A stretch of DNA of 64,000 nucleotides, from positions 1,836,599 through 1,900,598 of the forward strand of contig MOYA01000001.1 of NCBI GenBank assembly GCA_001899315.1, read 5' to 3'. Shown here in pieces: positions 7,231 to 61,110 of the stretch (its first letter is position 1; every line of letters starts with the position of its first letter). Source of the DNA: Candidatus Obscuribacter phosphatis. Its GTDB lineage: Bacteria > Cyanobacteriota > Vampirovibrionia > Obscuribacterales > Obscuribacteraceae. Under the pieces are notes generated by a model that was not told the DNA's origin, searched no databases, and saw only the letters and a list, made by a program, of their open reading frames with translations. A program made the translations under genes and the position numbers.

Positions 7231-8556
7231 GTGAGCATACCGACCTTACTGGTTTGTGATGGCGGAGAATCCAGACAGGACTTACTGGAAAAATCAATTA
7301 AGTCCCAGGCCGGTATGAAATACTTGGCCACCGTTGGACTCACCAATGGCGCAAGATCTGTCGATCAGGCCTTTAAGGTCGGCGGCAAGCTTATCTGGAT
7401 CGATCTCGAGGATGAGCCAGACAAGGGGTTGGAGCTAATCTCAGAGGTGAGGAATCTCTTCCCTCAAGCCAATATGATAGCCTCAGCCGATAGCCCCAGT
7501 CCTGAATTGATTCGAGCAGTTCTAAACCTAGGGGCACTCGATCTGATTCGCCCTGAAACTGTACAACAGCAGTTAGCAAATGTCGTAGCCAGGCTCTCCG
7601 GTCAGGCTCCGGCTCCAGGTCAAGTTCAGGCTCAGGCTCAAGCTCCAGCTCCAGCTCAAGTTCAGACTCCGGCAGCGAGCCAAGCAGCTTCATCTAAATG
7701 GGGCGATCTCGACTCCATACCAACCCCCGGCTCTGCAGCCAGACCGGCCGCCCAGCCGGCACCGGCACAGGCCCCAGCGCCGATGCCCATGGCAGCCAAA
7801 GCCCAAGAAGCCACAGGCGAAATCAATATTCAACAGATGCCTAGACCCGACTTAGAAGTCGGCGCCGCTCAGGCAAAAGAGATGATTCAAGCCCAAGCTC
7901 AGCCACAGGCCCAAAGTAGCTCCTCAAAATGGGGCGACCTCGACTCTATTCCCACCCCCGGAGCACCCGCAGCCTCAGGTTTGGGCGCCAATGCCGCTGC
8001 ACCGGCGGCAAGTCAACAGACCGACAGCAGTGGCGGCAAATGGGGTAACTTAGACGCGATACCTACGCCAGGGGCTACCGCCGCTCCCACTAATGCGCTC
8101 AGCGAAGCTCCCAAAGCGCAGGTTGAAAGTGGCAGCAAATGGGGCAATCTTGATTCTATACCAACGCCTGGAGCAGCTTCAGCACCGGCACCGGCACCAG
8201 CTCCTGCACCCGCTCCAGCACCCGCACCCGCTCCAGCTCCAGTGCAGGCTGCTGCTCCCGAGCCTGCACTCACAGGCGCAGAGAGCACCGGAGGCAGCAA
8301 GTGGGGTGACCTTGACGCAATTCCCACGCCCAAGGCTGTGACCAAAGAAATGGAGATGGTTGAACGCCCGCCTCGGCCGGATGGTCCGCCCCCTCCCTTG
8401 CCCACACCAAGACCGAAAAGCGAAAATCATCTACGCCCTTCGCCCAGCAAGGCGGAGATGTACAATATGCCCTCCACGCCAGCCTGGATGGTAGGTGTCA
8501 TCTTGATCGTAATCATGGCCTGTGTCGGCTACTATTTATACATGCGTCCGCACTGA
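7231..8556 (+). CDS. Receiver-like protein with five WG(D/N)LD(S/A)IPTP repeats and a C-terminal membrane anchor
   Basis: Residues 1-125 resemble a CheY/CpaE-type receiver: LLVCD at 6-10 supplies an acidic residue and KLIWIDLED places Asp58 at the phosphoacceptor position. Residues 126-400 are Ala/Pro/Gln-rich and carry five spaced copies of (S/G)KWG(D/N)LD(S/A)IPTP, beginning at residues 155, 232, 269, 302 and 356. Residues 418-437 are a hydrophobic anchor followed by only a short tail, so the protein is probably tail-anchored with the receiver and repeats in the cytoplasm. GTG start behind GAGGGG. Same strand as, and 48 nt after, the 1307-aa gene. The motif copies are far better conserved than their linkers, which suggests a peptide ligand for a partner protein. 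Function unknown. Confidence 0.75.
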   Translation: MSIPTLLVCDGGESRQDLLEKSIKSQAGMKYLATVGLTNGARSVDQAFKVGGKLIWIDLEDEPDKGLELISEVRNLFPQANMIASADSPSPELIRAVLNLGALDLIRPETVQQQLANVVARLSGQAPAPGQVQAQAQAPAPAQVQTPAASQAASSKWGDLDSIPTPGSAARPAAQPAPAQAPAPMPMAAKAQEATGEINIQQMPRPDLEVGAAQAKEMIQAQAQPQAQSSSSKWGDLDSIPTPGAPAASGLGANAAAPAASQQTDSSGGKWGNLDAIPTPGATAAPTNALSEAPKAQVESGSKWGNLDSIPTPGAASAPAPAPAPAPAPAPAPAPAPVQAAAPEPALTGAESTGGSKWGDLDAIPTPKAVTKEMEMVERPPRPDGPPPPLPTPRPKSENHLRPSPSKAEMYNMPSTPAWMVGVILIVIMACVGYYLYMRPH

Positions 8557-8589
8557 GCAAAGACTCAAAATTGATCAAAGACTCAAAAT
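8554..8589 (+). repeat. 18-bp tandem duplication starting at the stop codon
   Basis: TGAGCAAAGACTCAAAAT (8554-8571) is followed by TGATCAAAGACTCAAAAT (8572-8589), one mismatch. The first unit begins with the TGA of the upstream gene and the second begins with TGA as well. The repeat also reaches into the 3' end of the convergent pterin dehydratase gene (8575). Confidence 0.9.
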
Positions 8590-8922
8590 TACTGCCAACC
8601 TGGCGGCAAGTACAAAGTCGGCCAGACTCAAGGCTTTGATCGAATGAGTGAATATCACTATCTCAAGCGATCCATACTTTATTGTCAGGTCGGGATGATG
8701 ACCTAATTCCTCAGCAATAGGAACAATCTTCTGCGCCAAAGCAAAAGAAGACAGAAAGTCATCAGTCTTGATGCTGCGCTCAAGATAGCCCTGAGATGAA
8801 ATGACAAAGCCAGGCAGAAGAGTCAAATATGACTCTTTTTCTTGGTCCGACAATGCCGACAATTGACGGCAATCGCACTGACAGGCAGCCAATTGCTCTG
8901 GGCTCTGAAAAGCATTATCCAT
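8575..8922 (-). CDS. phhB: Pterin-4a-carbinolamine dehydratase
   Basis: Dehydrates 4a-hydroxytetrahydropterin during pterin cofactor recycling. The family core is present: EELGHHPDL followed by a short strand and FTHSIKALSLADFVLA, giving the catalytic His pair and the third His. The aromatic residue usual after HHP is replaced by Asp-Leu. The ATG at 8922 is favoured over the TTG at 8937 because GGAAAA lies at suitable distance before the ATG; the product is 115 aa, ordinary for the family plus a Cys-containing N-terminal extension (CQCDC). No aromatic amino acid hydroxylase is seen nearby, so the substrate-supplying enzyme must be elsewhere, or the protein has another role. Confidence 0.85.
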   Translation of the reverse strand: MDNAFQSPEQLAACQCDCRQLSALSDQEKESYLTLLPGFVISSQGYLERSIKTDDFLSSFALAQKIVPIAEELGHHPDLTIKYGSLEIVIFTHSIKALSLADFVLAARLAVILSL

Positions 8923-17445: not shown

Positions 17446-19977
17446 TCAAACAGTGTCCCAGTTGGGTCTTTTGCGACCAATATTGTCTTGCTGTTGCACA
17501 AGCTCGATTGAGGTATAGACACCTTGATCTCTATTATCAGCCACTTTCATTGCTTGACCGGCAGATAGACCCATTTTGCTTGCATCTTCGAAACGGTTCT
17601 GGCGATCGTTATATTCATTAAGGGCAGCCACGAGCCTAGACTTAGTAGCGATTAGACTGCCCAGACCATCAAAATTGCCACTCGAGACGCAAGCATCGAT
17701 AGCCGAATCGACCGAGCCTATGGCGTTGATAGCTAAACTTTGATAAGCGCCCGAGGTGATATTGCCGCTGGACGCCGCTGCCGAAACTTGAGTAGCAATT
17801 GAAGAGCCATAGCTAGAGGCTGTACTGGCTTTGCTTGTGCTGCTCTCGTAAGCATCGTCCGAACCGTCGTAGGCGACAGTGTATCCGCCCAGACCGTCAG
17901 AGAATGAAATGCTGTCGCTGTTCCAATCAAAGAGACCCTCATCCCAGATGGTCTTGTCGTCGGACATGCTTACTTGCTGATTACCAAACTGATCATAGCT
18001 GGCAAAGGTTATATTCTCAGGGTCAGACCAGTCAAAAACCTGTTTGCCTTCCACACCGCGAGTGGTGTCGGTGAAGCCCTTTTCGCTGATCTCAGTTTTC
18101 TGAATTTCTTCGCCGCTTGCAGCCCGATAGGTGACGACGTCTTTGCCGCTGGCATCGGCGACGCTCTCTAATTTCTTGCCTTTATCTGGCCCTTCGGTAA
18201 CCGTCTGACTGGCATCGATGGCGGTGCCAGCCTCGTTCAAACCTACTCTAGCTTTGCCATCAAGTGATTCAGCGCGAATTACTCCGTTTTCTTCGACCAA
18301 CTTGAAGTCGCCGAAGCGTCCACCGTAACGCTTCATGAAATCTTGGGCAGACATGGTCATGCCTTCAATAGGCTTGCCTTGGGCATCTAAAACCTTGATC
18401 TGCCCATCAACCAATTCCATACGGCTGCGGCCGTCTTTATTGAAGATGTCGATGCGTCCATCTTCGGCAGCTAGAGCAATTGAGTTGCGAGTATCGACAG
18501 CCTTGGCACCTTCAACCTCTCTGACGGTCTGCAAGGCTGGATTATCGCCAATTGTGCACTGGGTTGAGTCAGGCTTACATGCTTCAATTAAGCGCTTACG
18601 CTCATCATGAGCTGTTTTTGAAAGGTCGACCGATAGACTAAAGATACCGCCGTACTCTTTCTCAAGAGTCTGACTACCCTTAACTCTAGTTGTGATGTTT
18701 TCAGCCTTGTTGAAAAGCTCATAGCTGCCGTCGGGCATGCGACGGACAGTATCGCCGTTCTTTTGGGTCCAGGTTTGATCAAGACCGTCTTTGGTTTTTG
18801 TCACCTTAAGTTCGCCCAGTTCAGGACTGGTAGCGGTTGTGGTGCGGCCTTCTCTCACTACCTTCATACCGTCATCGGTAGTGTATTCATATTTATTCTT
18901 ACTGAGGCGGCCTTCTCCGCGGTCTGACTTTACAGCAGCCGAATCAGGTGTACCGTCTTTGAACGAAACTGTCTCAACCGAGACGCCTTGTTCACTCTTG
19001 AGCTTATTAGTGACATCCGAAACCGAACCTGCCCCCTTCATGGCGGTGGCAAACTTGGTGTCGTATTCGTTATATAAGGAGGTGTAAATGTTCTTGGTAC
19101 CTTCCACCAATAACTTAGCCCCGGAGTACTCATAGAGCTTGCCGGTTCCCCATTTAAATGTCTCCCAAATTGAACTATCTTGGGCGTCGGCCGGCTTGTC
19201 TACCGGTTTATCTGCGGGTTTATCAGCGGACTTATCAGCAGTCTTATCAGCAGTCTTGGGGTCGCCTTCGGCAGGCTTGGCGGCATCGGCAGGCTTATTA
19301 GAAGAGCCTAGCCCAACAAAATTCAAAGCAGAGTCATAGGCATTGCCGATACTAGAGAGAATTCCTCCGCCGTTCTCGACCTTCTTATCGGCGCTGGCCT
19401 CCGAGGCCACAGCTGCCTCTGGTTTGTCGCCGCCCTTGGTGTCTGCGGCTTTATTGACCACTGGTGCGGTGGCATCAGGTTGGAAAAGCGGTGTGGTTGG
19501 ATTGAAATTGAGAGTACCGGCGGAAGCAAGTTTGTCAGAGCCATTTTTGAACTCTATTGGTTTGCCGGCTAAAGCCAATTCAGCAGGCACGGCCACACCC
19601 AAGATACCTTTGGCACCTTCGCGTGCAGCTTTGTACTTATCTATGCAAGCTTTCTTGAGTGAGTCATATGCTTCATCGCACATTCTCTCAATACCGCTGC
19701 GCTCATCCTTATCTTCAGGCTTTTCGGCTTTCTTGTCGCCTTCGGCTTTCTCTTCAGGCTTAGTTTCACCAGAGGCTTTCTTATCAGCCTCAGGCTTACT
19801 TGCATTTTCATCAGCTTTCTTTTCGCCGCCATCGGCAGGCTTGGCCGGCGCTGCCGCCTCTTGAGCCAACTTAGCCGAAGCGTCAGCGTTCTCCTTAGCT
19901 GGCTCGGCAGCTTTATCTGCTCCAGGCTTTTTAGCTGGATCTTCTACTTTATCTTTAGCTTGAGGTGCATCGGCCAT
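17446..19977 (-). CDS. 843-aa Lys/Ala/Asp-rich protein with beta-repeat body
   Basis: Not recognised. Residues 1-105 and 160-270 are charged low complexity made of Ala-Asp-Lys-Pro units (DKPADKPVDKPAD). Residues 300-640 alternate short strands and turns in the manner of RHS/YD-like or similar beta-repeat proteins (GDTVRRMPDGSYELFN, EDGRIDIFNKDGRSRM). Residues 690-820 are Ser/Ala-rich helices. There is no signal peptide and only a few cysteines (CKPDSTQC). The ATG has GGAG 10 nt upstream. It is a single gene, convergent with the Sm-like gene's upstream side and divergent from the lipoprotein. Composition and repeats fit a secreted or surface-associated protein, but export is not shown. Confidence 0.7.
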   Translation of the reverse strand: MADAPQAKDKVEDPAKKPGADKAAEPAKENADASAKLAQEAAAPAKPADGGEKKADENASKPEADKKASGETKPEEKAEGDKKAEKPEDKDERSGIERMCDEAYDSLKKACIDKYKAAREGAKGILGVAVPAELALAGKPIEFKNGSDKLASAGTLNFNPTTPLFQPDATAPVVNKAADTKGGDKPEAAVASEASADKKVENGGGILSSIGNAYDSALNFVGLGSSNKPADAAKPAEGDPKTADKTADKSADKPADKPVDKPADAQDSSIWETFKWGTGKLYEYSGAKLLVEGTKNIYTSLYNEYDTKFATAMKGAGSVSDVTNKLKSEQGVSVETVSFKDGTPDSAAVKSDRGEGRLSKNKYEYTTDDGMKVVREGRTTTATSPELGELKVTKTKDGLDQTWTQKNGDTVRRMPDGSYELFNKAENITTRVKGSQTLEKEYGGIFSLSVDLSKTAHDERKRLIEACKPDSTQCTIGDNPALQTVREVEGAKAVDTRNSIALAAEDGRIDIFNKDGRSRMELVDGQIKVLDAQGKPIEGMTMSAQDFMKRYGGRFGDFKLVEENGVIRAESLDGKARVGLNEAGTAIDASQTVTEGPDKGKKLESVADASGKDVVTYRAASGEEIQKTEISEKGFTDTTRGVEGKQVFDWSDPENITFASYDQFGNQQVSMSDDKTIWDEGLFDWNSDSISFSDGLGGYTVAYDGSDDAYESSTSKASTASSYGSSIATQVSAAASSGNITSGAYQSLAINAIGSVDSAIDACVSSGNFDGLGSLIATKSRLVAALNEYNDRQNRFEDASKMGLSAGQAMKVADNRDQGVYTSIELVQQQDNIGRKRPNWDTV

Positions 19978-20087: not shown

Positions 20088-20258
20088 TAGCGCCACTTGT
20101 CAACACAATTTCATCTTCTTGATTTCGTATTTTTCCCATCGCCCACCCAGTTCAGGCAAAGTGGTTATAAAATCCTATAAGTAACTGGCACTATAGGGCC
20201 ACTATCTAGTCCAGTATCCAGATATCCAGTCATATGGAATCGCACTTAGGGGGATGAA

Positions 20259-21179
20259 ATGAGCCGCAATATGGGATGGTCGAGATTGATAATGCTTATC
20301 TCGCTCTCGCTATGCCTGATACCCCTCTTGAGCGCTTGCCAGACCATAAAGCTGAGCGACAAAGCCGGGGCAGGCTCCACAGGCACTACAAGCTCAGGTC
20401 AAAGCGGGGGCGCTGCTCAAACTTCCACCGATGTGAGCGGTCCCTGGCAAATTTCATATGAAGTCAATCAAGAGCCTAGATCTGCCCACCTTAACCTCGT
20501 GCAGACGGGCAATACTTTTGAAGGAACTGGCACAGACGACCACGATGGACAAAATTTCGTCGTTTCTAAAGGTGTGATCACCGGCAACCATATTAGCTTT
20601 CATAAGCGTTACCATGTCGACGAGAATCCCAATCTGCCCCCGATCGTTTATCAAGGCAGCTTTGAAATGGCCAAAACCGAGACTTATAGCGGTCCATATA
20701 TGTCCGGCACCTATAACCTCGCCAAAGCCGGTACCAATATTGGCGGTAAGTGGGATGGACAAAAAGAAGGGGCAGCCACCAGTTCGGCCCAGGCTCCAGT
20801 AGAAAACCCGCCGCCGCAGCCGGTCAATACCGGCAAAGCCCCCCACCTATCAGGCAAATGGGATGCCGGCTATGAGTTCGAATTCAAAACAGTGCATTCA
20901 AGCATCTATTTAGAACAAGACGGTCCCAAGCTTGTCGGTCATGGCATAGACAAAAACTCAAAGGAAACCTTTAGCCTGCAGGGTAACTACAAGTTTCCCG
21001 ACATTAGATTTGTCCTTAAATACAATGCCGTCAAGGGTCCTAAGGGCAAAAGCAAGCCCGAGCGCAAACTGGAATTTAGAGGCACGGTCTCGGTGGTGAA
21101 CGAGGCTGAGTACCAGGGACCGCGCTTAGAAGGCAAGACAAACGGCGGTGGGGCCTGGATGGCCGAAATAGTTAAATAG
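20259..21179 (+). CDS. Lipoprotein with two repeated beta domains
   Basis: The N-terminus is a lipoprotein signal (hydrophobic core then LLSAC, Cys27). After a Gly/Ser/Thr linker come two related beta-rich modules: residues about 62-160 (GPWQISYEVN...SAHLNLVQTGNTFEGTG) and about 198-306 (GKWDAGYEFEF...SSIYLEQDGPKLVGHG). Each starts with W-x-x-x-Y/F strands and ends in a GTxN/GxVS strand, so the gene probably arose by internal duplication. GGGGGA precedes the ATG. The 3' end, including the stop codon, lies in a 20-bp tandem repeat. Function unknown; location in the outer membrane or periplasm is inferred. Confidence 0.75.
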   Translation: MSRNMGWSRLIMLISLSLCLIPLLSACQTIKLSDKAGAGSTGTTSSGQSGGAAQTSTDVSGPWQISYEVNQEPRSAHLNLVQTGNTFEGTGTDDHDGQNFVVSKGVITGNHISFHKRYHVDENPNLPPIVYQGSFEMAKTETYSGPYMSGTYNLAKAGTNIGGKWDGQKEGAATSSAQAPVENPPPQPVNTGKAPHLSGKWDAGYEFEFKTVHSSIYLEQDGPKLVGHGIDKNSKETFSLQGNYKFPDIRFVLKYNAVKGPKGKSKPERKLEFRGTVSVVNEAEYQGPRLEGKTNGGGAWMAEIVK

Positions 21180-21320
21180 AAGCTGAAATAGTTAAATAGA
21201 AGCCGAAATAGTTAAATAGAAGCCGAAATAGTTAAATAGAAGCCGAAATAGTTAAATAGAAGCTGAAATAGTTAAATAGAAGCCAGAGTAATTAACTAAA
21301 AGCCGAATTACTCAACTAAA
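21161..21320 (+). repeat. 20-bp tandem repeat (8 units) spanning a stop codon
   Basis: Units of GCCGAAATAGTTAAATAGAA type run every 20 bp from 21161 to 21280 almost without change (only C/T at one place), and two decayed units follow at 21281-21300 and 21301-21320. The first unit encodes the last residues and the TAG stop of the lipoprotein, so the array copies the gene's own 3' end. The array stops at the end of the convergent kbl gene (21322). Confidence 0.95.
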
Positions 21321-21321
21321 T

Positions 21322-22581
21322 CTAGATGACGCCCAGTTTCTTTCCGACTTTGGCAAAAGCGGTGAGCGCTCTATCGAGGTCTTCTACACTATGGGCGGCC
21401 GAGATTTGCACGCGCAGTCTGGCTTCACCCTTGGGCACGACAGGATACCAGAGACCCCTGACATAGACGCCTTCATCTAATAGAAGGTTGGACATATCTT
21501 GGGCAATGGAAGCTTCGCCGACCATGACAGGCACTATGGGGTGAACGCCGGGCAAGATAGTGAAGCCGATACGCTGCACTTCTTTTCTAAAATAGTCGGT
21601 GTTTTGATGCAGCTTCTCCACCAAAGCACTGTCTTCTTCCAAAATATTGAGCGCCTCGATGGCGGCGCAGACAATGGTGGGAGGCAAAGAATTAGAGAAG
21701 GTGTAAGGTCTTGATTTTTGCCTCATATAGTCGATCAAGACTTTCTTACCGGCAATGAAACCACCGGCGGCACCACCCAGAGCTTTACCGAGTGTGCCGG
21801 TGATCACATCTATCTTGCCGTGCACGCCGCAGTGTTCGGGAGTACCACGACCGGTGGCGCCGAGCACACCGGTGGAATGTGATTCATCAACAAAGAGCAA
21901 GGCATCATTGGCTTTGGCTAGCTCGACAAATTCCTTGAGGGGGGCGAACTCACCTTCCATGCTGAAGACACCGTCGGTGGCAATAACAGATAGCCTGTAG
22001 TCTTTTGCCTTATCTTCTGCAATGAAGGTCTTGAGCTGTTCCATGTCATTGTGTTTGTAGGCGCGCAAATCTGTGGTCTTGACGGCAATGCGCGAGAGCC
22101 TGATACCGTCGATGATGCTGGCATGGTTGAGGGCATCGGAATAAATGACATCGCGATAGTCTTTCATGCCTAGGTCGGAACCGACTAAAGCAGCAAAGAA
22201 GGCTTCGTTGGCGGCAAAGCAAGAAGAGTGAAGAATAGCCGACTCCACTCCAAGAAAGCGGGCAATACGCTCTTCCAGTTCAAGATGTATTTTCTGGGTG
22301 CCGCAAATAAAGCGCACCGAAGCTAGACCATAACCATATTTCTCAAGCCCTTTCTTGGCCGCCTCTTGAATGCGGGGATGGTTTGCCAGACCAAGATAAT
22401 TGTTGGAAGCAAGCATCACCTGGCTGCGACCAGCTGCCTGCACAACACCGCCTTGATGGCTATCCACCGGCACTTCCAATTTATAGGTTTTGGCTTCTTT
22501 TGAACGGTTCAGCTCTTCTTCCAGACTTTTATAAAGAGCCTTAGGTGCCATTTTCTTGGCGGCGGTGCTGTTCTGACTCAT
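21322..22581 (-). CDS. kbl: Glycine C-acetyltransferase (2-amino-3-ketobutyrate CoA ligase)
   Basis: A PLP enzyme of the alpha-oxoamine synthase family that cleaves 2-amino-3-ketobutyrate with CoA into glycine and acetyl-CoA. Seen: the N-terminal [11 protein letters not shown] motif, [17 protein letters not shown], and the PLP lysine Lys266 in [13 protein letters not shown]. The length of 419 aa suits Kbl. The ATG at 22581 is chosen over an upstream TTG because AGAGGTG lies 5-6 nt before it. The threonine dehydrogenase gene ends 34 nt upstream on the same strand, which makes Kbl much more likely than the related serine palmitoyltransferase or BioF. Confidence 0.93.
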
Positions 22582-22615
22582 GAGTTCACCTCTTACAATT
22601 CTTGAATTTATCAAA

Positions 22616-23830
22616 CTAGGGCGTAAAGACCAGTTTCATCTCTTGCCCGCTCACCAAAAGATCAAAGGCTGTGCTGTAATCTTCCAAAGCCCAGGTCTTA
22701 GAACATATGATTCTATCCATCCTCTCCTGCAAGCCATTGTGATTTGTCTTGAGCAGTTGCAACATGGTCTCCCAAGTATCAAACATCTTGCGACCAAAGA
22801 TGCCTTTCACCGTCACACCTTTCCAAATCACACCATTGGCGATATCAAAATTGTTGAGCGGTTTTCTGGCAATACCCAAAAGAATAACGGTGCCGCCATT
22901 GCGCACAATCTTGAAAGCATCTGTATAAGCACTGGGAGAGCCGGACATCTCCAGAACCACATCCACTCCATTGGCGCCTGTTTCATTCTTTTCGACAGCC
23001 TTGTAGAGTTCGCCGGTACCTTTGCCTACATCAAAGCAATACTTCACACCAAATTCTTCAGCCAAACTAAAGCGTCTTTCCACATCGGCGGCTTCGGTTA
23101 GATAGATGCGAGCCGCACCAAAGTCACGGCACAAAAGCGCCGCCATCAGCCCCAGAGGACCAGCGCCTAGAATGGCCACCGATTTACCTCGCACATCGGC
23201 TTCAGAGACTGTATGCACAGCATTGCCGAAAGCGTCGAGCAGAGCGCCAATTTTGGGAGGCAGTTGGGAAGTGTCGCCGCCTTTACCCAGCATAATCACA
23301 TTTTTGTAAGGCAAGGTGACCGAATCGGCAAAGCAACCGTCTAGGTGCACGCCCTTTACTTTTACCGATGTACAAATATGTTCATTGCCGCTGCGACAAA
23401 GCAAACAATGCCCGCAAGATAAATGCATCTCGGCAGTGACATAATCGCCTTTCTGTATGCGCATATGCTCGGGGGCGGAATGACTGGCAGCCGCAGCCGC
23501 CTCACCGACTTCCTCTACTATGCCGCAAAATTCATGACCTACTACTATAGGTGCATACTTTCCATCTTCCACATAGCGACGCATCTCATTGCGAATACCT
23601 TCACTCTGGGCACTGGTGTAAATACTTTTATCTGTGCCGCATACAGCTGTGGCCAGAACCCGAATCTTAACCTCGTCCAATCTGCAGACCGGAGACTTAT
23701 GGTCTTTGACAAAAGTGAGACCATCTTTATCAAGGTCTTCTTTAACCAGACACTTCATCAAACTGTCTTTGCCCCTCTGTGTCAAACCCGCATCACTTGT
23801 GCTTTTCGCGCCGTCAGCCACAATGCCCAT
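22616..23830 (-). CDS. tdh: Zinc-dependent L-threonine 3-dehydrogenase-like enzyme
   Basis: A medium-chain dehydrogenase. Catalytic zinc ligands are visible at Cys64 (AVCGTD) and His99-Glu100 (VGHEFCG), the structural zinc site at Cys139, Cys142, Cys145 and Cys153, and the NAD motif [15 protein letters not shown] near 215. At 404 aa it is longer than E. coli Tdh (341 aa) because of an N-terminal extension and an Ala-rich loop ([11 protein letters not shown]). It oxidises L-threonine to 2-amino-3-ketobutyrate, the substrate of the adjacent Kbl. The assignment among zinc alcohol dehydrogenases rests on that neighbour. The ATG follows GGGAG. Confidence 0.85.
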
Positions 23831-29140: not shown

Positions 29141-30839
29141 ATATGATCTACTCCTGGTTGGTGGTAGTCCCTCCAACCTGGCATTGGCCAATCGTTTCTT
29201 AGAACTTGCCAAAGAAAGCGGCAAGGAATTTACCATGGCCATATTGGAAAAAGGAAAAGAGTTCGGCTCCCATGTTATGAGCGGCGCCGTATCCAATCCC
29301 CACGTGATTGCCAAACTCTTCCCCGATTACAAAGAAAGCGGCTTCCCTATCGAAGCCACCTGCACCGACTCTTATTTTTCAGTTCTCGGTGTCAACAAGA
29401 AATGGGATGTCCCTTCCAAGATGTATCCCAAGTCTTTAGACAAAACCGGCTATGTGGTGCTCAGCCTTTCCAATGTTGTTGCCTGGATGGCTTTCAAACT
29501 GCAAGAAAAGGCAAAAGACGTACCCAATGTCACCATCGACCTATTTAACGGTTTTGCTGCCCACAAAGTTGTCTTTGAAGACGGCAAAGTAGTCGGTGTA
29601 GCAGTGAGCGAAGACGCCAAATCGGAAGAAGATTTCGTCTACGGTAAAGTCACTTGCTTCGGCGACAAAGGTTTCATTTCGCGCGAAGTCATCGACCACT
29701 ACAAGCTGCGCGACAATCCGCAAATTTGGTCGGTCGGCGTCAAAGAAGTCTGGCAAGTCAATGAAGACTATGCCGGTAAAGTCTGGCACACCCTGGGCTA
29801 TCCGCTTTTGGACGGCACCTTCGGTGGCGGCTTTGTCTATGGCATGAAAGACAAGCGCCTCACCATCGGTATGGTAATCAGTCTCGACAGCAAAGACCCC
29901 AATATGAATCCGCAGCAAAAGCTGCAAGACTACAAGAAGCATCCCTTCATTCAAGAAATGATCAAGGGCGGTAAGCTTCTCAAATATGGTGCCGCTCTCT
30001 TGCCTGAAGGCGGATACTACAGCCTGCCCAAGAAATTCTATGTACCCGGCGCTATTCTCTTAGGTGATGCCCTGGGTGTATTGGATGTGAAAAACCTAGC
30101 CGGCATCGATCGCTCGATGGAATGCGGCTATGTGGCGGCAAAAGTTTTGCACGACGCCCTGGTCAAAGGCGATACATCTGAAGCAGCCTTGGCTCCCTAT
30201 CAGAAAGAACTGGAAAGCGGCTTTGTCATCAAAGAAGCTTACAAGAATCGCTATTTCCGCTGGGCTTTCATGAGCAATCCCAAATTGCTCGGTCAGTACC
30301 TGCCTGATATCGCCAAGAGTGTCGATAAGACTAATGCTTGGGTCGGTATGCTCAAAGTCGGCTTCAAAAATCCTTTCGGGGCTCCGGTCGACGGCGTTAC
30401 CTCGCTCTCGCTCATCGAAGGCACCAGAGATATCGGACCGATCAAATACGAAGCCGATTGCAAGCACATAGTGCCTAACTTTACCGCCCCTAAATATGAT
30501 GAGCCGCCCTACGATAAAGCAACTATCTACAGCAGGCCCGATGCGGTTTTCTTTGCCTCCACCAAATATCATGAAGGCAATGAGCATATCGATGAATTCA
30601 ACTCTGATACCTGCGTCAAGTGCATCTCTAAATACGAAGGTCTAGGCAAGACCACGCCTTGCGTAGCCGACTGTACAGCCGAAGTGCACCGCATCGACAT
30701 CATCGACGACTTGAGAAAGCACGGCATGTCGCTGGAAAACTGCATCCATTGCCGCACCTGTGAGATAGTCTGTCCTGAAGTCAACTTGAGAGTGAAACCC
30801 ACTTCGCAAGGCAGTGGTCCCGACTTCCTCGGACTCTAG
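29124..30839 (+). CDS. ETF-quinone oxidoreductase-like flavo-iron-sulfur protein (ETF-QO/FixC type)
   Basis: Passes electrons from ETF into the quinone pool. The N-terminus is an FAD domain (LLLVGGSPSNLALANRF), the middle carries the ETF-QO blocks GGGFVYGMKDKRLTIGMV and AILLGDALGVLDVKNLAGI, and the C-terminus has the 4Fe-4S motif NCIHCRTCEIVCPEVN. An additional cysteine group precedes it (TCVKCISKYEG...CVADC), beyond the single cluster of mitochondrial ETF-QO. The dinucleotide motif is GGSPSNL rather than GGGPAGL. The start is TTG overlapping etfA by 17 nt, with a GGGGG stretch upstream; the TTG may keep the membrane enzyme below the level of ETF. Confidence 0.9.
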   Translation: MSDRIEYDLLLVGGSPSNLALANRFLELAKESGKEFTMAILEKGKEFGSHVMSGAVSNPHVIAKLFPDYKESGFPIEATCTDSYFSVLGVNKKWDVPSKMYPKSLDKTGYVVLSLSNVVAWMAFKLQEKAKDVPNVTIDLFNGFAAHKVVFEDGKVVGVAVSEDAKSEEDFVYGKVTCFGDKGFISREVIDHYKLRDNPQIWSVGVKEVWQVNEDYAGKVWHTLGYPLLDGTFGGGFVYGMKDKRLTIGMVISLDSKDPNMNPQQKLQDYKKHPFIQEMIKGGKLLKYGAALLPEGGYYSLPKKFYVPGAILLGDALGVLDVKNLAGIDRSMECGYVAAKVLHDALVKGDTSEAALAPYQKELESGFVIKEAYKNRYFRWAFMSNPKLLGQYLPDIAKSVDKTNAWVGMLKVGFKNPFGAPVDGVTSLSLIEGTRDIGPIKYEADCKHIVPNFTAPKYDEPPYDKATIYSRPDAVFFASTKYHEGNEHIDEFNSDTCVKCISKYEGLGKTTPCVADCTAEVHRIDIIDDLRKHGMSLENCIHCRTCEIVCPEVNLRVKPTSQGSGPDFLGL

Positions 30840-30880
30840 AGCAAAGTAAGCTAGAGCAAAGTAAGTTAGATCAAGAAAGG
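30836..30880 (+). repeat. 15-bp tandem repeat starting at the stop codon
   Basis: CTAGAGCAAAGTAAG occurs at 30836-30850 and again at 30851-30865, followed by a decayed copy at 30866-30880. The first unit contains the TAG stop of the ETF-QO gene. The terminator stem begins inside the third unit. Confidence 0.9.
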
Positions 30881-59580: not shown

Positions 59581-59748
59581 ATTCTAGATAGAATAGAGTG
59601 CAAAAGAACTAAGCCCTACAAAAACTTAGCTCTAAATTTAGTTAGCGCTAGAATAACCAAACTCTAGGGCTAACTTAGCTCTAGATCACTTAGCTCTGCA
59701 AGAACGAAATAACAGAATATAGAGATAAGCCCCAAAGCTTACTCAAAA

Positions 59749-59772
59749 TCAAAATCAGAATCAAAATCAGAA
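59749..59772 (-). repeat. 12-bp tandem repeat abutting a stop codon
   Basis: TCAAAATCAGAA occurs twice in perfect tandem, with partial copies on both sides. On the minus strand it begins directly behind the TAA (59775-59773) of the TrbI-like gene and reads TTCTGATTTTGA, so each unit carries TGA. Confidence 0.85.
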
Positions 59773-61110
59773 TTAAAATGGATCCGGTAACTCAAGCGGC
59801 ACCACAGCCGGCAGTAAACCATTATTCGGGACATTATTCAGATTATTGTTAGAACCAACCTGTCCCGGTGGAATCGGTGCCTGTATGATCGGCATACCGT
59901 TATACCCAGGACCGCCGCCGATTGCAGCATCCTTGGCGATACCATAATTAGAGTTTCGGGGTTCAGAGTTTCCGGCGGTGGCACCGGCAGTGCCGCTTGG
60001 AGACCCACTACTGCCACTACTGCTACTGGCGGCGGCGCTGTTCACAATAGTCGGTGCGGTCATGCGACTGACGTCCACAGTCGAATTTAACCGCACTGGC
60101 ACCATGGTCCCGGCCTTCAAGTTGAACTCAGGTCCACGATATCTAAAAGTTGGTCTAATGCCGATACCGGCAGTGACCGAATTCATGAAAGAACTCAAGT
60201 CTCTTTTGTAGTCTGAAAAGTTCATCGAACTGCTGCGCAATTGAGGTGGTTGAGCTAAATCGTGGGCAGGATTTCTGTCAATGTAGCCGGCGAATTTACA
60301 AGAGCGCCCATCGGGAAAAACCAAGGTAGTTAGACCTACTTGCAAATTGCCTGGGGTACTGACACCGCGCAGAGTGCGAGCCGGTGCCACCGAAACCACG
60401 GTACCGACAATGCGCGAATTGGGAGGAATAACTTCCACCCCGTTGGCAAAGTAGCCATCAGGCAAGACTATAGAAAAGAGGTCCTGCGGCAGGCTCTTGC
60501 TGCTGGAAAGGTCATCGGCGAGAATGCCGGTAAGAACTGTACCGGCGGCAATTCGAGTTGAAAGAATCTGTTTCAGCACATCTGGAACAGCCATATTGGC
60601 GCGGGCGGACGCCGCACCGCCACTCGGGAAACCTAAAGCACCGCCTTGCCCAGGCAAGGCTAGACCAGGCACAGAAGCAGATTGCGAAGTTTGATTCTGC
60701 CCCATACCAGGCACATTGATGGGAGCCACCAAACCGGGCGCGAAAGAAGAAGCACCGCTCTTGCTGTTACTGGGCGGAGTAGGATCATAAATCGAATTCA
60801 CCATGCTGCCGGGATCGATTATGCCCGAAGGAGCAGGACCAGACGGATGCTGCATCTCCCACTGTTCTTTAGCAAAGAGGGCGGCACCTGAAGAAACGAC
60901 AAACTCCAGTGTGACTAGGCTGGTGACAAGCAAGAAAGACAAGAAAGACGAGAAAGATAAGAAAGGTATGTAGACAGACGAGCGGCGGATCTTTGCCGAT
61001 GCACAAGCTGCAGCTTGCGAAACTTTACTAGCCGCTGAAACTTGGCAGGCGAGCTCATTCTTTCTTAAGCACTTCTTCTCTGAACGCGGCGGTCTCGTTT
61101 TTAGGGTCAC
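59773..61110 (-). CDS. Exported TrbI/VirB10-like protein
   Basis: A 445-aa protein. A polar N-terminus is followed by a hydrophobic segment (YIPFLSFSSFLSFLLVTSLVTLEFVV, about 48-73) and a Pro/Gly/Ser/Asn-rich linker. Residues 185-345 follow the TrbI/VirB10 beta-barrel pattern: STRIAAGTVLTGILAD, VIPPNSRIVGTVVSVAP, LQVGLTTLVFPDGRSCKFAG. The end is again Gly/Ser/Asn/Pro low complexity. No other type IV secretion gene is present, so a conjugation role is not supported; cyanobacterial relatives often have such proteins alone. GTG start with AGG 7 nt upstream. Confidence 0.65.
   Translation of the reverse strand: MTLKTRPPRSEKKCLRKNELACQVSAASKVSQAAACASAKIRRSSVYIPFLSFSSFLSFLLVTSLVTLEFVVSSGAALFAKEQWEMQHPSGPAPSGIIDPGSMVNSIYDPTPPSNSKSGASSFAPGLVAPINVPGMGQNQTSQSASVPGLALPGQGGALGFPSGGAASARANMAVPDVLKQILSTRIAAGTVLTGILADDLSSSKSLPQDLFSIVLPDGYFANGVEVIPPNSRIVGTVVSVAPARTLRGVSTPGNLQVGLTTLVFPDGRSCKFAGYIDRNPAHDLAQPPQLRSSSMNFSDYKRDLSSFMNSVTAGIGIRPTFRYRGPEFNLKAGTMVPVRLNSTVDVSRMTAPTIVNSAAASSSSGSSGSPSGTAGATAGNSEPRNSNYGIAKDAAIGGGPGYNGMPIIQAPIPPGQVGSNNNLNNVPNNGLLPAVVPLELPDPF

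Follow-up and report, generated by a model that had tools for sequence, protein, structure and literature searches.

In Candidatus Obscuribacter phosphatis, the gap between a lipoprotein-like gene and a convergent kbl-like gene is filled by an array of 20-bp units that is very likely a nearly neutral minisatellite; it would have been born by tandem duplication over the lipoprotein stop, with replication slippage or unequal exchange as the inferred route of growth. The array lies within a 64,000-nucleotide stretch of contig MOYA01000001.1 (assembly GCA_001899315.1), hereafter the window, in which all positions are numbered unless another contig is given. In a duplication spanning this stop, the first copy (codons plus stop) would stay in place and leave the protein unchanged, and the convergent gap would contain no promoter or ribosome-binding site to be harmed. 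Because a stop-spanning duplication spares the protein and a convergent gap holds no such signals, the array could persist while its copy number shifts almost neutrally, with occasional homogenization with, or re-expansion from, the constrained coding unit.

The source of unit 1 is a 306-aa lipoprotein-like ORF without a Pfam match (20259–21179, plus strand); it adjoins a gene for an 843-aa protein, also without a Pfam match (17446–19977, minus strand). Unit 1 (21162–21181) comprises the terminal codons of the lipoprotein gene (AEIVK), its TAG stop (21177–21179) and AA. Units 2–6 (21182–21281) are identical to unit 1 at 19 or 20 of 20 positions and differ only by GCC/GCT variation, and two decayed units follow (unit 7, 21282–21301; unit 8, 21302–21321), each with 14/20 identity to unit 1. 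The last base of unit 8 (21321) directly abuts the stop codon (21322–21324) of the convergent gene (21322–22614, minus strand), for which Pfam gives the family only (aminotransferase class I/II), the name kbl being that of an earlier note made from the sequence alone. TRF reports the array at 21162–21307 with a period of 20, 7.3 copies, 90% matches and a score of 236, compared with a maximum score of 37 among 200 dinucleotide shuffles of 21000–21460; cutting the sequence into 20-bp units gives eight head-to-tail units (21162–21321) in the assembly. The existence of the array is thereby confirmed, with the earlier note correct in its coordinates to within one base, and its remark that the stop recurs in every unit holds literally (units 1–6 have TAG, units 7 and 8 have TAA at the stop position). 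With a period of 20, successive copies place their stops in all three frames, and only every third one lies in the frame of the lipoprotein gene. The unit sequence occurs at a single site in the 5.49-Mb genome, with the array alone matching and no homologous copies elsewhere that would mark a dispersed family; a search of a plasmid collection gave no match. By score, the array ranks fifth among the 103 gap arrays in a 1.064-Mb sample of the host genome.

Of 50 genomes in the family, 44 have a homolog of the lipoprotein, 43 of them readable through to the stop and one (L056) with no readable ORF. Restricting the count to genomes in which kbl directly faces the lipoprotein gene in convergent orientation, at a distance of up to 300 bp, gave 13; two of them (G003 and G046) have an 8-bp overlap between the genes, which leaves 11 open gaps. 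The gene's own terminus, including the stop, is duplicated in five of the 11: in the host, in its congener G002 (approximately four 20-bp units, in the same register as the host's eight), in G007 (period 13 bp), in G045 (three copies of 18–19 bp), and in G009 (two 20-bp copies, 18/20 identical, found by eye only, TRF being silent). G044, a member of the genus that also includes G045, lacks an array in this gap. Since each duplication repeats the terminus of its own species, the duplications are lineage-specific or homogenized. The earlier note proposed slippage or unequal exchange, starting at the end of the gene itself, as the way in which the array grew. This is supported by the orthologs that duplicate their own, differing termini (G007, G009, and G045), as well as by synonymous codons: units 2–6 share the GAA and AAA of unit 1, at positions for which the congener uses GAG and AAG. 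Host unit 8 and G002 unit 4 are identical at 14 of 20 positions and both contain ACTCAA; given this resemblance, a short array was probably already present before the host and G002 diverged, and units 2–6 would represent a later expansion from unit 1.

Other features are found in the same gap in further relatives. In G033 (L031), which belongs to another genus, a 15-bp unit unrelated to that of the host is repeated approximately ten times, starting 3 bp past the lipoprotein stop. G006 (L014/L022) and G007 (L012/L020) carry a strong bidirectional hairpin with flanking A/T tracts, predicted from its sequence as a likely two-way terminator. We also considered the lipoprotein stop as a hotspot of recurrence. 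Arrays detected by TRF span this stop in 4/11 open gaps vs. a base rate of 14/256 convergent stops (p = 0.002), but the significance is lost once the genus in which the array was found is omitted (2/9, p = 0.08), and the hotspot was rejected.

Arrays of this kind are abundant elsewhere in the genome. Our survey covered 1.064 of the 5.49 Mb of the host (G000) and 135–300 kb of each of six other genomes, using one TRF threshold (score 45, period 7–120) and one gene caller (a custom script based on codon log-odds, with ORFs of at least 60 aa; the gaps therefore include some missed genes). Among host gaps of at least 15 bp, arrays are present in 24/86 convergent, 44/356 tandem, and 16/126 divergent gaps, an excess in convergent gaps over all others (24/86 vs. 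60/482, Fisher p = 0.0008). This preference may reflect relaxed constraint, or convergent transcription could itself be mutagenic, the two being inseparable here; if it is mutational, head-on transcription would be linked to the birth of repeats. Stop-spanning arrays are frequent in certain members of the phylum, and the samples from other genomes contain none: arrays include 19/528 stops and 7/608 starts in the host sample (p = 0.005), 12/121 stops and 0/127 starts in G060, another member of the phylum, and, for stops, 2/97 in G002, 2/104 in G019, 0/64 in G033, 0/120 in G061, and 0/162 in Escherichia coli K-12. The search of gene ends that the earlier note had suggested thus overturns the rarity that it implied, given 19 such ends among 528 in 1.064 Mb. 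In G060 (L124–L133, C1 1.0–1.2 Mb), arrays occupy 61/124 surveyed gaps, including 23/32 divergent gaps, and none lies over a start codon. Within the window itself, short arrays with periods of 18, 15, and 12 are located at stops in convergent gaps at 8554–8590, 30836–30874, and 59743–59779, respectively. One long array in the host (G000 C1 122242–122594; L064 2242–2594) has a 30-bp unit repeated approximately 12 times, the consensus of which, translated in one frame, gives a His/Glu/Gly repeat, and is perhaps a histidine-rich coding region overlooked by the gene caller.

The comparison of stops with starts gives the appearance that arrays are anchored at stops, an interpretation that does not survive a null model in which each array was re-placed randomly inside its own gap 2000 times. 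Stop-spanning arrays number 12 observed vs. 15.6 expected at convergent stops and 7 vs. 8.5 at tandem stops in the host, and 9 vs. 8.6 at convergent stops in G060; at the starts of G060 (tandem and divergent gaps together), 0 were observed vs. 7.8 expected. Stops are therefore not special anchors, because random re-placement predicts as many stop-spanning arrays as are found: arrays disregard the stop boundary, and in G060 the start boundary is avoided. In a simpler test, the last 18-mer of a gene recurred within 80 bp downstream with at least 13 matches at 5/320 gene ends vs. 1.7 expected. The overall pattern is that expected from blind duplication followed by selection, in that a duplication over a start would disturb expression signals and one over a stop would leave the protein intact.

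The arrays turn over quickly and are not kept. Among 85 syntenic orthologous gaps of G000 and G002, an array is present in G000 only in 10, in G002 only in three, in both in two, and in neither in 70; array-bearing gaps are thus one-sided in 13/15 cases, and in one of the two shared cases the units are unrelated. Several of the one-sided gaps are flanked by proteins that are 97–99% identical, and gap lengths differ between the congeners (e.g., 142 vs. 70 bp and 192 vs. 42 bp). For the short arrays of the window, the G002 gaps orthologous to those with periods of 15 and 12 bp lack these arrays, and the gap corresponding to the period of 18 has an unrelated 14-bp array. We also compared 59 copies of units, drawn from 35 entries for stop-spanning arrays in four genomes (copies with less than 60% ungapped identity were dropped, and 3/35 entries retained no copy): letters at the stop position are 84.7% identical to unit 1, compared with 87.6% for the other letters, and some stop is still present in 45/59 copies. 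Differences from one stop to another are to be expected, because unit 1 may change only to another stop. At the present locus, a stop triplet is kept at the copied position in five decayed units, two from G000 and three from G002, for which the simulated chance is approximately 0.008; this calculation was post hoc, and two of the five are probably orthologous, hence not all are independent.

The earlier note held that the array is tolerated or useful, for example in keeping convergent transcription apart. Tolerance is borne out by the prevalence of arrays in convergent gaps, by their quick turnover, and by the near-random frequency with which they span stops. Usefulness finds no such support, and a role of the array in insulating convergent transcription, whether as terminator, roadblock or spacer, is very unlikely. 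The array does fill a convergent gap, convergent gaps are rich in arrays, relatives G006 and G007 carry the hairpins described above in the corresponding gap, and the RNA of the minus strand folds slightly better than shuffled sequences (z = −1.81). However, the plus-strand RNA folds more poorly than most shuffles (z = 1.16), no intrinsic terminator (a G+C-containing hairpin with a T run) is present on either strand of the gap, and array-bearing convergent gaps are not poorer in terminators than others (5/18 vs. 16/53, gaps of up to 600 bp), as they would be if arrays took the place of terminators. In G007, hairpin and small array occur together; orthologous gaps without an array exist, gap lengths vary between congeners, and the genes of G003 and G046 overlap by 8 bp. 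Rfam models gave 0 matches in 20200–22700 at E up to 1, and the best match to Rho in the host, whose assembly is 95% complete, is sub-threshold (32 bits vs. a cut-off of 509). Terminator, structured RNA, and Rho-dependent termination were each tested and rejected or left weak, and the same holds for back-up stops and a dispersed element.

Retention of the repeats as a set of back-up stops covering the three frames seems to us even less probable; each unit has a stop at a fixed position and the array covers all frames, but the stop letters of unit copies are no better preserved than their other letters. The reading to which we attach the least credence is an assembly artefact, in the existence of the array or in its copy number: tandem repeats are a known cause of wrong copy number, but the same-register array of approximately four units in the independently assembled congener G002 (L008), the own-terminus repeats in further assemblies, and a host assembly of only eight contigs all argue against the concern. 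A broader proposal, doubtful in our view, is that convergent transcription itself causes gene ends to duplicate in Obscuribacterales and in one or more further members of the phylum, with 3′ ends seeding minisatellites and staying in step with their arrays through concerted exchange. A nearly neutral minisatellite thus remains the preferred explanation; the locus illustrates how a minisatellite may originate from a gene end at no cost to the protein, and the base rate of 19/528 stops in the host sample cautions against reading single cases as devices.

Several known repeats resemble the array in part. Units that overlap the end of a gene also occur in mycobacterial interspersed repetitive units (MIRUs) and in the rtT repeats after E. 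coli tyrT. The units of rtT repeats are far longer than 20 bp, and MIRUs form a dispersed homologous family, whereas the host unit is confined to a single genomic place. Among the titles listed by literature searches, none deals with stop-spanning minisatellites in convergent gaps. The TAACTGA heptamer repeats of Beggiatoaceae and Cyanobacteria, like the present arrays, are intergenic direct repeats, but they consist of one fixed 7-bp motif, dispersed through the genome and mostly near start codons (PMC4679880), whereas the unit of each array here comes from local sequence. The closest likeness is to bacterial minisatellites or VNTRs, which are counted among the small variable segments of bacterial genomes (PMC2884548). 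As in these, head-to-tail units of approximately 10–100 bp (here a period of 20 and 7.3 copies by TRF) occupy an intergenic position and vary in copy number between close relatives (eight in the host, approximately four in G002). The only difference is that unit 1 is a coding gene end, which random placement explains; the locus is a well-developed but ordinary minisatellite, new as a locus only.
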